The notes under the pieces: generated by a model
Told to the model about the DNA's origin: nothing
The model's database searches: none
What the model saw: the letters and a program-made list of their open reading frames with translations, nothing else
Origin: a bacterium
GTDB lineage: Bacteria > JACRDZ01 > JAJRWM01
Reading direction: 5' to 3'
DNA: 6,063 nucleotides
NCBI GenBank assembly: GCA_024276815.1
Contig: JAJRWM010000016.1
Location: 1-6,063 of the forward strand
Part shown: one piece after another, positions 2,300 to 5,814 of the stretch
Layout: each line of letters starts with the position of its first letter
How positions within the stretch are numbered: the first letter of the stretch is position 1
Translations under genes and position numbers: made by a program

Positions 2300-2857
2300 A
2301 TGAAATCCAGGAGTATTCTTAAATTCGTCTTGTGCGTTGCGCTGTTATCGGTTTTACTGGTTGCCTGCGAAAATACCAAAGCCCAGAAATCACAGAGTGG
2401 CAAGGTGAACGCCGCGGCCCGGAAGAAAGGGGCTGAAAACCGGGCGCCTGATTTTACGGTGACTACTCTGGATGGGCGTCAGCTCTCGTTGAGCGCTTTG
2501 AGGGGTAAAGTTGTTCTGCTTAATTTCTGGGCCAGTTGGTGCCCGCCCTGCCTCAAGGAATTACCCCATCTGGAGCGAATATATCAGAAATATAAAAACC
2601 AGGGCGCGCTGGTGGTTGGTATGAACGTGGAAAACAACCGCTCTCCGGAGGAAATTAAAAAATTCGTCGATAACCAGGGATTGAACTTTCCCATAGCTAT
2701 CGCCAGCTCTGAAATCCTGTCACAATACGGTATCAGCCCCATTCCCCATTCTTTCTTTATCGATAAAGCGGGAAACATCGCCGATCAGATGAAAGGTTAC
2801 GGGCGGGGAGCGGAAGTTGAGATGGAAAACAAAATTCGTGAATTGTTAAAAAAATAG
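2300..2857 (+). CDS. TlpA/ResA-like thioredoxin-fold lipoprotein
   Basis: The 185-residue protein is a membrane-anchored thiol-disulfide oxidoreductase of the TlpA/ResA/AhpC-TSA-like group. A lipoprotein signal peptide ends in the lipobox LVAC with Cys23 as the lipidated residue; a hydrophilic linker of about 25 residues follows. The thioredoxin domain starts at APDFTVTTLDG (49-59), carries the active site WCPPC (80-84) and the cis-proline loop at IPH (148-150), where family members usually have PT. WCPPC is typical of reducing periplasmic thioredoxins that keep apocytochrome CXXCH cysteines reduced. The multiheme cytochrome gene upstream fits that role, which remains inference. The ribosome site GGAAGGGG (2288-2295) supports the ATG. 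It is the first gene of a run, with thioredoxin starting 15 bp after its stop. A general extracytoplasmic disulfide reductase is the alternative. Confidence 0.9.
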   Translation: MKSRSILKFVLCVALLSVLLVACENTKAQKSQSGKVNAAARKKGAENRAPDFTVTTLDGRQLSLSALRGKVVLLNFWASWCPPCLKELPHLERIYQKYKNQGALVVGMNVENNRSPEEIKKFVDNQGLNFPIAIASSEILSQYGISPIPHSFFIDKAGNIADQMKGYGRGAEVEMENKIRELLKK

Positions 2858-2872
2858 AAGGGATGTTTTAAT

Positions 2873-3199
2873 ATGGGTGACGCTACGATCGCTATTACCG
2901 ACGATACCTTTGACAGTGAGGTATTGCAGTCGGATATTCCGGTGCTGGTGGACTTTTGGGCGCCTTGGTGCGGGCCTTGTCAGATGGTTGGACCAATTTT
3001 AAATGAATTGGCCGCGGCTTACAGTGGTAAACTGAAAATCGCCAAGTTAAACGTTGATGAAAATCGCCAGAAGCCGACTGAATACGGAGTCCAGGGAATA
3101 CCGACCATGATTCTTTTCAAAAACGGAGTGAAAATCGATCAGGGCGTTGGCGCTCGGGCCAAGAACGCCCTGGTTGAGTTTATTGATAAAGGTATTTAA
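2873..3199 (+). CDS. trxA: Thioredoxin
   Basis: The 108-residue cytoplasmic protein has standard thioredoxin length and no signal peptide. It shows the active site WCGPC (32-36) within DFWAPWCGPC, the buried Asp27 that tunes the active-site thiol, and the cis-proline loop GIPT (Pro77). It reduces protein disulfides and is itself reduced by thioredoxin reductase, which is not in the window. The ribosome site AAGGGA (2858-2863) lies 9 bp before the ATG. It is sandwiched between the TlpA-like lipoprotein gene and an iron-sulfur/zinc-finger gene. The downstream frame is in phase with trxA and separated from its TAA by one codon. Family assignment is secure; whether this is the main cellular thioredoxin or a dedicated partner of its neighbour cannot be told. 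Confidence 0.95.
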   Translation: MGDATIAITDDTFDSEVLQSDIPVLVDFWAPWCGPCQMVGPILNELAAAYSGKLKIAKLNVDENRQKPTEYGVQGIPTMILFKNGVKIDQGVGARAKNALVEFIDKGI

Positions 3200-3202
3200 T
3201 CG

Positions 3203-3622
3203 TTGTACAGTATTGGCTGGGAATGTACCAAATGTAATGTTTGCAAGGAAGTTTGCGCGGTTGGCGCAATAACGCTCCGGGACAATAGGTATACCATAAC
3301 GGAGTCCTGTACCGGCTGTGGCGAGTGCGCGAAGGCTTGTCCGGTTGGAGCGATTAATGAGACAGAAGGTAACGGTGATATGAATTGTGAAGATGTTCTG
3401 GACTGTTTATCACAATACTTTGATGGGGAGATTGAATCATCTCTGAGCGTGAAAATAAAACTCCATCTTGAAAAATGCGCTTACTGCAGGATTATTTGGA
3501 ATACTTTCAAGAAGACCATCGAATTTATTCGACCATACGCCACGGCTTCCCGGGTTAAAGTCTCCGATGATATCCATTCCCGCTTGATTTATCATCTGAG
3601 AAAGAACTTACAGGAAAGTTAA
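3203..3622 (+). CDS. Two-cluster ferredoxin fused to an anti-sigma-type zinc finger (ZAS/zf-HC2)
   Basis: The 139-residue protein has two parts. Residues 8-46 are a bacterial-type ferredoxin with two cluster motifs: C8-x2-C11-x2-C14-x3-C18 (followed by Ala, not the usual Pro) and C36-x2-C39-x2-C42-x3-C46-P. Residues 60-110 match the zf-HC2/ZAS domain of zinc-binding anti-sigma factors: MNCEDVLDCLSQYFDGEI, then H88-x3-C92-x2-C95. The spacing C62-25-H88-3-C92-2-C95 equals that of redox-sensing RsrA as I remember it. No membrane segment is present, so the protein should be cytoplasmic. The only start before the first cluster Cys is TTG at 3203, with AAAGG at 3188-3192 as ribosome site; translation is probably coupled to trxA. 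An in-frame ATG at 3380, preceded by AGAAGG, could make the zinc-finger part alone. A redox- or Fe-S-sensing regulator is inferred; no sigma factor is adjacent. Confidence 0.8.
   Translation: MYSIGWECTKCNVCKEVCAVGAITLRDNRYTITESCTGCGECAKACPVGAINETEGNGDMNCEDVLDCLSQYFDGEIESSLSVKIKLHLEKCAYCRIIWNTFKKTIEFIRPYATASRVKVSDDIHSRLIYHLRKNLQES
3364..3382 (+). promoter_or_regulatory. Possible internal ribosome site and ATG for a free zinc-finger product
   Basis: AGAAGG (3364-3369) lies 10 bp before the in-frame ATG at 3380-3382. That ATG begins MNCEDVLDC, exactly where stand-alone zf-HC2 proteins normally start. Use of this site would yield an 80-residue ZAS protein in addition to the fused form. Confidence 0.3.
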
Positions 3623-3679
3623 ACTTAATAAATTACTCAAAACGGCCGATCTACCGGAAAAACAATTACTTAAAAGAAT

Positions 3680-4438
3680 ATGGCAAATAAAATACTGGTA
3701 ATAGATGATGAAGAACTCGTCCGCCGCCTGGTTTCCTTTAACCTGAGCAGAGCAGGTTATGAAGTTATTACCTGCTCAAGCGGCCCTATTGGAGTAGTGA
3801 AAGCCAAGGAAATTTATCCCGACCTGATAGTTGTCGATCGATCCATGCCGCTGATGGACGGCTACGAATTCTGCGAGAAAATCCGCGAGGACGAGGAACT
3901 AAAAGACACGCCGATAATCATGCTGACCGCCTATGAAACCTCCATTGGCGATATTAAAAAAGCGCATGAACTGAAACTTTCGGGTTATATCAAAAAAGCT
4001 TCTGATCTGAGTGATTTAATCGCCAGGATTGACTCGTTTTTTGAAAAAGAAGAACAGCGCTTCCAGGACAAGTCTGGCCCGTTGAGTTTTTATCAGAGAA
4101 AACACGGCGCCGTAGTAATCCTGCCCTTCTATACTCCCCGGTCAATTAACCGCTTTGAGGAAACGATAAAAATTCTGGCTGAGAAGAATATCAAAAACAT
4201 CGTTCTGGATCTGACGCGCGTCAAGGATATTGACGACACCCTGCTGGAAATACTGGCCGATTTGCGGGAAAACCAAAAAAGCCGCCTGGGCGATATCAAG
4301 CTTTATCTTATCGATGTTACCAAGAGCCTGGAAATTTCGCTGAATTCATATTCTCTGGAATATTATAAAACGGTGGAAGACGCCATGGCGGTATTCACAA
4401 AAGCCGATCAGGAAAGTTCCGCAGAACCGGGGAGTTGA
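3680..4438 (+). CDS. Response regulator with N-terminal receiver and C-terminal STAS-like domain
   Basis: The 252-residue protein has a receiver domain (about 3-122) with acidic residues D9/D10, phospho-acceptor D53 in VVDRSMPLMDG, switch residue T83 (MLTAY) and a lysine at 105/106. The lysine is followed by Ala, where receivers nearly always have K-P. Residues about 139-240 resemble a STAS (anti-anti-sigma) domain: a hydrophobic strand VVILPF, then IVLDLTRVKDIDD, then a strand IKLYLIDV and a terminal 'TVEDAMAVF' helix. At the position of the regulatory DSSG serine the sequence is D185-D186-T187. No DNA-binding domain is present, so output is probably through protein binding. The ribosome site is weak (AAAAGA). 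The gene is 57 bp after the ferredoxin/ZAS gene in the same direction. No histidine kinase is nearby. REC is certain; STAS is by pattern. Confidence 0.85.
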   Translation: MANKILVIDDEELVRRLVSFNLSRAGYEVITCSSGPIGVVKAKEIYPDLIVVDRSMPLMDGYEFCEKIREDEELKDTPIIMLTAYETSIGDIKKAHELKLSGYIKKASDLSDLIARIDSFFEKEEQRFQDKSGPLSFYQRKHGAVVILPFYTPRSINRFEETIKILAEKNIKNIVLDLTRVKDIDDTLLEILADLRENQKSRLGDIKLYLIDVTKSLEISLNSYSLEYYKTVEDAMAVFTKADQESSAEPGS

Positions 4439-4509: not shown

Positions 4510-5814
4510 TCAATAACGCTTATGGTCGGTTTTAATCTCCACTTCAAAGACGTGGGGCAGTTTCATTATCTGCCCGATGATCTCCGCGGTCAGTTTCACA
4601 CCCTCTTCAAAAAGAATTACCCTGTCGGTGTTGTTTAAAATCGGTTTGGCCAGAATCATACCAGGTTCAAGCTTTTCCCGGTCCACCCTGCTTACTTTGT
4701 AAATTTCCCCGCCGGGTATTGGAGGTGGTGGAGACGGTGGGGGTTGTTTGGGGCTGGCGGCGGATTCCGGTTTTTTGGTCGGCATCAAAGGTGGTTCTTC
4801 TTTTCCCTCATTATAAATATCGGCCTGAAACTCTTTCTTCAGATAGCTGTAATCTATTATTTTTTCCAGGGCCTCTTTTTCCAGGTAAACGTCATCCTCG
4901 ATCATGACCATCAACGCCAGTTCTTCCAGGATGTTGAACACCTCTTCGAAATTGGTGAAAACACCGGCTTTTACGCCCAGTTCTTTCCGTAGCGAATCAA
5001 TATTGACAACCAGCCGCTGCCCCTGTGGCTGCCCGATCTTTTTCACAACCCTCAGAATGACGTCCAATAGATGTAAATCTTTTTCCGAAGAGAATAAAGC
5101 ATCCAACTTGGGGTTGCTTTCCTTGGTGAATTTATTTTTCTTCTCCAGATAATTAACATAATCCTGTAATTTGCTGATATCCGGGATGATCAGGAGTTGT
5201 TTTTTAGCGTGAGCATCGCCGATTCTGACTAATTTTTTGTCGGTCAACCGGTTTATGCTTGTTTCCGCCTCAGCCAAGGAGAGGCCCAGCTTGTTGGCCA
5301 TGAACTTCTGGGCCAGGCCCAGGTTAAGCTTTACCTCAGACGCGTTTTGTTGACCATAGGCTTTGGCGATATCAATCAAAGTCGCTACGGTCTGGCTGGT
5401 TTTCTCCTTTAAGAGGAAAGTCGCCAGGCGTTCATTGGTCGTCCGCAGACGATTAATGATGATGCGGATAAGCGAAGTTATCCAGCTTGGCAGTTTATCC
5501 AACTGGTTATCCATCATGGCTTTGGTGATTACCAGGATGTTGGAATCTGTCAACAGGCGGGCGGACGCCGAGCGGGGTTTCTGGTCAAAGAAAGCCATTT
5601 CCCCGAAGATATCACCTTTGCAGAAGACCGCCAGTGACGTTTCGTCCTCACCGCTGGTCTTGACGATCTCTACGGCGCCCTCGATAATAAAATAGAGTTC
5701 ATCGGAAGCGTCTCCTTCGTGAAACAGGAACTCGCCGGCTTCAAAGAGTTTTCCTTTTTGATTAAGTTTACCGAACAAAATCACTTCCCTTTCGTTTGCT
5801 ATGGCTCGTATCAA
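4510..5814 (-). CDS. Crp-like cyclic-nucleotide-binding multidomain regulator
   Basis: The 434-residue protein starts with a cNMP-binding domain (about 14-110). Its phosphate-binding cassette FGEMAFFDQKPRSASA keeps the Glu72 and Arg81 that contact cyclic nucleotide in CAP-type proteins. A long helix (about 110-140) leads to a winged helix (about 163-210). A second helical, possibly winged region (about 244-322) follows, then a linker rich in Pro (341-367, with PPPSPPPP). The C-terminal domain (about 371-428) has KLEPGMILAKPILNNTD and EGVKLTAEII, a pattern I know from regions preceding HD-GYP domains; here it stands without one. Twice the length of ordinary Crp. The start is TTG at 5814 because no ATG or GTG lies upstream in frame before a stop; no clear ribosome site is seen, and GTG at codon 11 is an alternative. 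Convergent with the REC-STAS gene, 71 bp apart, without an obvious terminator. Ligand and targets unknown. Confidence 0.8.
   Translation of the reverse strand: MIRAIANEREVILFGKLNQKGKLFEAGEFLFHEGDASDELYFIIEGAVEIVKTSGEDETSLAVFCKGDIFGEMAFFDQKPRSASARLLTDSNILVITKAMMDNQLDKLPSWITSLIRIIINRLRTTNERLATFLLKEKTSQTVATLIDIAKAYGQQNASEVKLNLGLAQKFMANKLGLSLAEAETSINRLTDKKLVRIGDAHAKKQLLIIPDISKLQDYVNYLEKKNKFTKESNPKLDALFSSEKDLHLLDVILRVVKKIGQPQGQRLVVNIDSLRKELGVKAGVFTNFEEVFNILEELALMVMIEDDVYLEKEALEKIIDYSYLKKEFQADIYNEGKEEPPLMPTKKPESAASPKQPPPSPPPPIPGGEIYKVSRVDREKLEPGMILAKPILNNTDRVILFEEGVKLTAEIIGQIMKLPHVFEVEIKTDHKRY

Follow-up and report, generated by a model that had tools for sequence, protein, structure and literature searches.

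A candidate ferredoxin-ZAS anti-sigma factor encoded beside thioredoxin genes

Introduction

Zinc motifs abound in soluble anti-sigma domains of the ZAS class, which are often regarded as redox sensors. A relative of another kind is RsiW, the anti-sigma-W factor of Bacillus (PDB 5wuq), which belongs to a membrane protein that is cut by proteases. The anti-sigma domain of RsiW spans about 80 residues and begins M-x-C. RsiW does not require zinc to bind its sigma factor (PMC7406223). In Streptomyces, the anti-sigma-R factor RsrA (PDB 5frf) is a soluble zf-HC2/ZAS protein with ligands spaced C-x25-H-x3-C-x2-C, at positions 11, 37, 41 and 44, and oxidation links Cys11 with Cys41 or Cys44, thereby destroying the zinc site and freeing the sigma factor (PMC4960319). 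For SigR/RsrA, a link to thioredoxin is known.

On the iron-sulfur side, the clostridial 2[4Fe-4S] ferredoxins, exemplified by PDB 1fdn, are small proteins with two cluster motifs. The Wbl proteins, including WhiB1, provide a case of a [4Fe-4S] protein acting on a sigma factor. WhiB1 differs in fold and cysteine motif from the protein described here, binds the primary sigma factor and has no ZAS domain.

Here we describe an open reading frame from a metagenomic contig in which a ferredoxin of the clostridial type stands in front of a ZAS module of the soluble type. Our literature searches found no paper on a ferredoxin-ZAS protein, in agreement with the sequence-only reading of this DNA, which knew of none.

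Results

The window analysed here is a whole contig (C108) of 6,063 bases, which belongs to a 2.39 Mb genome assembled in 246 contigs. The frame under study starts with a TTG codon 3 bases past the stop codon of a thioredoxin gene (Table 1). Its first half contains eight cysteines (C8, C11, C14 and C18, followed by C36, C39, C42 and C46) in two CxxCxxCxxxC motifs, just as the sequence-only reading had placed them, and a domain search of the complete frame matched Fer4 families at about 1e-9. Two such motifs in about 55 residues are what distinguishes a clostridial-type ferredoxin, and residues 1-53, which have the same length and cysteine spacing as these ferredoxins, are a predicted 2[4Fe-4S] cluster-binding domain. 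The relatives of this half in the PDB are 1fdn, 9g03 and 1dur, and its score against NF058577 (62.8 bits) falls just below the cut-off of 65. In contrast to the clostridial ferredoxins, it is fused to a regulatory domain and has Ala rather than Pro (CA) after C18, the fourth cysteine of its first motif.

Table 1. Positions of the ferredoxin-ZAS frame, its parts and the genes around it in the window.
Feature	Position	Strand	Evidence or remark
TlpA/ResA-like thiol-disulfide oxidoreductase (WCPPC)	2300..2857	+	AhpC-TSA 2.3e-28, Redoxin 2.1e-26
Thioredoxin (WCGPC)	2873..3199	+	TIGR01068 122.8 bits, above cut-off
AAGG, possible ribosome-binding site for TTG start	3189..3192	+	4 nt, weak
Ferredoxin-ZAS open reading frame	3203..3622	+	139 aa (open codons 3203-3619), TTG start, TAA stop at 3620-3622; Fer4 and zf-HC2 both above gathering scores
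Predicted clostridial-type 2[4Fe-4S] ferredoxin domain, residues 1-53	3203..3361	+	Fer4_7 1.1e-9 (residues 8-50), Fer4 3.7e-9, Fer4_9 3.9e-9
Junction TEGNGD, residues 54-59	3362..3379	+	Stop codon cluster in +2 frame
AAGG, possible ribosome-binding site before internal ATG	3366..3369	+	Match and spacing as for ferredoxin start
Predicted complete soluble ZAS module, residues 60-139, ancestral start Met = M60	3380..3619	+	zf-HC2 4.2e-7 for the piece from ATG 3380 scanned alone; alignment A1 with 15 free-standing homologues
Putative zinc ligand codons C62 (3386), H88 (3464), C92 (3476), C95 (3485)	3386..3487	+	Sequence; invariance in A1
Response regulator receiver + STAS, next gene downstream	3680..4438	+	Response_reg 2.4e-23, STAS 3.8e-5

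The same search bore out the claim that a zf-HC2/ZAS domain with C62, H88, C92 and C95 follows in frame. zf-HC2 (PF13490) matched residues 62-96 over its full profile (positions 1-35) at 2.2e-6, scoring 28.1 bits in the fusion and 30.4 bits for the isolated piece against a gathering cut-off of 22.2, and the H-x3-C-x2-C motif is present. A pattern combining both motifs at the observed spacings matched once in the window and never in 200 shuffles. The sequence showed no membrane segment. The proposed likeness to RsrA held in part: the ligand spacing is indeed that of RsrA, with C62, C92 and C95 standing for Cys11, Cys41 and Cys44, but this spacing is the general zf-HC2 consensus and hence not diagnostic, and the score against the RsrA equivalog model TIGR03988 was 28.3 bits for a cut-off of 62.5. 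The frame further differs from RsrA in having a ferredoxin domain in front and no adjoining sigma gene, and its tie to thioredoxin is one of gene neighbourhood. A single-sequence AlphaFold prediction gave a useless model (pLDDT 39.5).

To place the second half of the frame, we searched its 80-residue ZAS piece in 290 genomes, where the matches were mainly free-standing homologues of 77-98 residues with 26-35% identity over the alignment. The profile of this family matches the solved structures of RsiW (1.5e-10), the closest solved relative of the family by this measure, and RsrA (3.2e-6). In an alignment of 15 free-standing homologues (A1), C3, H29, C33, C36 and T46 are common to all, and 10 of the 15 begin M-x-C exactly at M60-N61-C62 of the frame, which keeps the four ligands and T46 together with the family's C-terminal helix pattern. 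Judged by its sequence, the ZAS half is thus a complete member of a soluble anti-sigma family of about 80 residues, and since the homologues start where M60 lies, the frame contains an entire ZAS gene, start codon and all, preceded by an entire ferredoxin. The free-standing soluble ZAS proteins encoded behind ECF sigma factors of the C151 type (alignments A1 and A2; C151 is described below) share with it their length, start Met, ligands, a KT-I/V motif and thioredoxin, thioredoxin reductase (TrxR) or TlpA neighbours. None of them, in contrast, has a ferredoxin domain or a small ferredoxin gene nearby. In three other genomes of the same phylum we found only longer, membrane-type ZAS proteins (28-31%) and no orthologue of the downstream response regulator-STAS gene, so these genomes offer no close relative by which to judge the junction.

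The genes around the frame follow an operon-like order of TlpA/ResA-like protein, thioredoxin, ferredoxin-ZAS and response regulator-STAS, with very short gaps between the first three. STAS domains occur also in anti-anti-sigma factors. The starts of the TlpA, thioredoxin, ferredoxin, ZAS and response regulator genes (2300-4438, + strand) all fall in one reading frame, with the stop of thioredoxin two codons ahead of the TTG, probably by chance. Elsewhere in the window, a periplasmic-type multihaem cytochrome c with many CXXCH motifs (846-1925, + strand; Paired_CXXCH_1 7e-55; DmsE family 103 bits, below cut-off) hints at extracellular or periplasmic electron transfer. The minus strand (4510-5814) encodes a 434-residue protein with a cyclic-nucleotide-binding domain, a weak Crp HTH domain and a long C-terminal part with no domain assignment. 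Two adjoining 24-base direct repeats near the contig end (78-126; 92% alike, spacing 25) are possibly the end of a mobile element. An Rfam scan gave no match, and promoter and terminator scans yielded about what is expected by chance.

Thioredoxin genes accompany the family beyond this window. In 10 of the 35 family loci, a thioredoxin, TrxR or TlpA-like gene lies within 1.5 kb of the ZAS gene and without exception on its strand; neighbouring genes had played no part in the choice of the loci. Genes of these three kinds made up 11 of 130 near genes compared with 2 of 183 far genes (odds ratio 8.4, p 0.002), the two far ones being likewise on the same strand. In L101 and L104, a TrxR scoring above the TrxR equivalog cut-off is encoded directly downstream of the ZAS gene, and the thioredoxins next to ZAS genes in L156 and L160 are 57-58% identical to that of the window. 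The closest match to the gene order of the window, minus the ferredoxin, is L164 (4675-5268), where a soluble ZAS gene begins 27 bases after a thioredoxin gene and there is neither an adjoining ECF gene nor a ferredoxin. Clusters of an ECF gene, a soluble ZAS gene and a thioredoxin or thioredoxin reductase gene recur in several different families (L101, L104, L151, L156, L160, L163 and L165) and possibly represent a widespread thiol-stress module resembling SigR/RsrA. As the soluble anti-sigma family usually has an ECF neighbour and frequently a thioredoxin one, a redox role for the ferredoxin-ZAS protein is plausible.

We additionally looked for a sigma factor partner, since a neighbouring ECF gene had been put forward as a check. 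There is no ECF gene on the 6,063-base contig, and the usual, though not obligatory, adjoining ECF gene of a ZAS protein is therefore missing here; among its homologues, 26 of the 35 loci have an ECF gene within 1.5 kb, nearly always directly upstream. The sigma genes of the genome, classed by reading their sequences, are two ECF genes and one FliA/WhiG-like gene. Behind the ECF gene on contig C194 lies its own, longer ZAS gene, which encodes the only other zf-HC2 protein of the genome. The ECF gene on contig C151 (L033:503-1087) is an orphan with no anti-sigma gene adjoining. Across loci drawn from many families and not fully independent, the adjacent ECF matched C151 better than C194 in every one of the 31 small-ZAS loci tested, compared with 4 of 8 long-ZAS loci (p 0.0009). 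Because every small-ZAS locus favours C151, which lacks a ZAS of its own, this ECF is our best guess and the likely partner of the window ZAS.

Finally, we asked whether the fusion recurs. A survey pattern joining the second ferredoxin motif (TGT codon) to the ZAS spacing through linkers of 8-18 residues gave 28 matches in 84,980 species genomes, and none was a ferredoxin-ZAS fusion. All in-frame matches with an open frame were multi-ferredoxin proteins, oxidoreductases that carry several Fe-S motifs or other Cys-rich proteins. The TGC form of the pattern found nothing in 386 genomes, both forms found nothing in viral contigs, and plasmids yielded ferredoxin-only matches. Near relatives of the window may be absent from the collections searched. 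When the whole protein was searched in 60 genomes, ferredoxin and ZAS matches came separately, with no full-length match, and none of the 35 family loci has a small ferredoxin gene within 1.5 kb of its ZAS gene. The survey of homologues thus found no second genome with the fusion, which has been seen once, on one metagenomic contig. With no other fusion in the collections searched and no family locus containing a small ferredoxin within 1.5 kb, the ferredoxin seems to be an addition peculiar to this locus. Its join to the ZAS may be genuine and of recent origin, or it may be due to one missing stop codon.

Discussion

The reading we favour, at a probability of roughly 0.45, is that the frame encodes a soluble, thioredoxin-linked anti-sigma factor with an N-terminal 2[4Fe-4S] ferredoxin, which would silence an ECF sigma factor, likely C151, in a manner released by redox change and reset by thioredoxin. 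On this reading the two halves would be translated as one chain. When reduced, the ZAS module with its zinc would bind and silence the sigma factor, most likely the C151 orphan if the pairing suggested by the family loci is right. By the precedent of RsrA, oxidation of C62 with C92 or C95 would release the sigma factor; loss or oxidation of the [4Fe-4S] clusters could do so as well, alone or together with it, and thioredoxin would reset the switch. With a thioredoxin gene in the same operon, such a cycle of release by oxidation and resetting by thioredoxin is the simplest model. To this the ferredoxin domain could add oxygen or iron sensing, and the internal ATG at M60 may give an extra, free ZAS form that lacks the cluster domain. 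The zinc site itself may be structural, since RsiW, the closest solved relative, binds its sigma factor independently of zinc.

A strong rival, and one that could well be correct, is that two adjoining genes of a thioredoxin operon, one for a free ferredoxin and one for a free ZAS protein, are here read as one through a stop lost by recent mutation or by a base error in the assembly, with the ZAS protein made from the ATG at 3380. M60 being the normal ZAS start, with M60-x-C placed exactly as in the free-standing homologues, stop loss, base error and internal initiation all have to be taken seriously. The ferredoxin half likewise ends as normal ferredoxins do (compare L009, CPIGAINEE-stop), and several stops in the +2 frame across the junction mean that a one-base error could have joined the halves. 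The lack of a fused relative in the collections searched points the same way, as does the AAGG at good spacing before this ATG, which is a weak indication because an equally good site precedes 22% of internal codon positions. Against these points stands the in-frame join of 139 codons that is actually present, given that simply adjacent genes would share a frame only one time in three. If the fusion is not real, what the locus holds is an ordinary anti-sigma gene of the thioredoxin-linked kind with a ferredoxin gene next to it.

An extended form of the favoured reading is, in our view, doubtful: an anti-sigma factor with two cofactors, in which the [4Fe-4S] domain would directly control a zinc-thiol ZAS module holding an ECF sigma factor in trans and initiation at M60 would supply a cluster-free form, so that one gene would read both oxygen or iron and thiol status.

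It is improbable that the ferredoxin serves as an electron donor, supplying either the thiols of the ZAS module or thioredoxin from the same operon, with the ZAS module as sole sensor. The gene order and the very short gaps from TlpA through thioredoxin to ferredoxin-ZAS would suit such a role. However, direct reduction of disulfides is not usual for [4Fe-4S] ferredoxins, and because the genome lacks the catalytic subunit of ferredoxin:thioredoxin reductase (PF02943) and has an ordinary thioredoxin reductase (contig C169), electron delivery is less likely than sensing. Most improbable of all is that the ZAS module has lost its binding to sigma factors and taken on another use, for instance that of a zinc-binding domain partnering an electron carrier. 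In favour of this, one could cite the lack of an adjoining sigma gene and the 9 of 35 homologous loci also without an ECF gene within 1.5 kb. It is at odds with the retention of T46, all four ligands and the helix pattern at the C-terminus, and with an orphan ECF of matching type in the genome.

Zinc-thiol anti-sigma factors and Fe-S regulators are known separately, and one protein that brought both to bear on an ECF partner would give ECF control an input of a new kind. In addition, many lineages may have a SigR/RsrA type of control, in which a sigma factor governs thiol homeostasis, as is suggested by the wide family of soluble ZAS proteins and ECF sigma factors whose genes have thioredoxin, TrxR or TlpA genes as neighbours.
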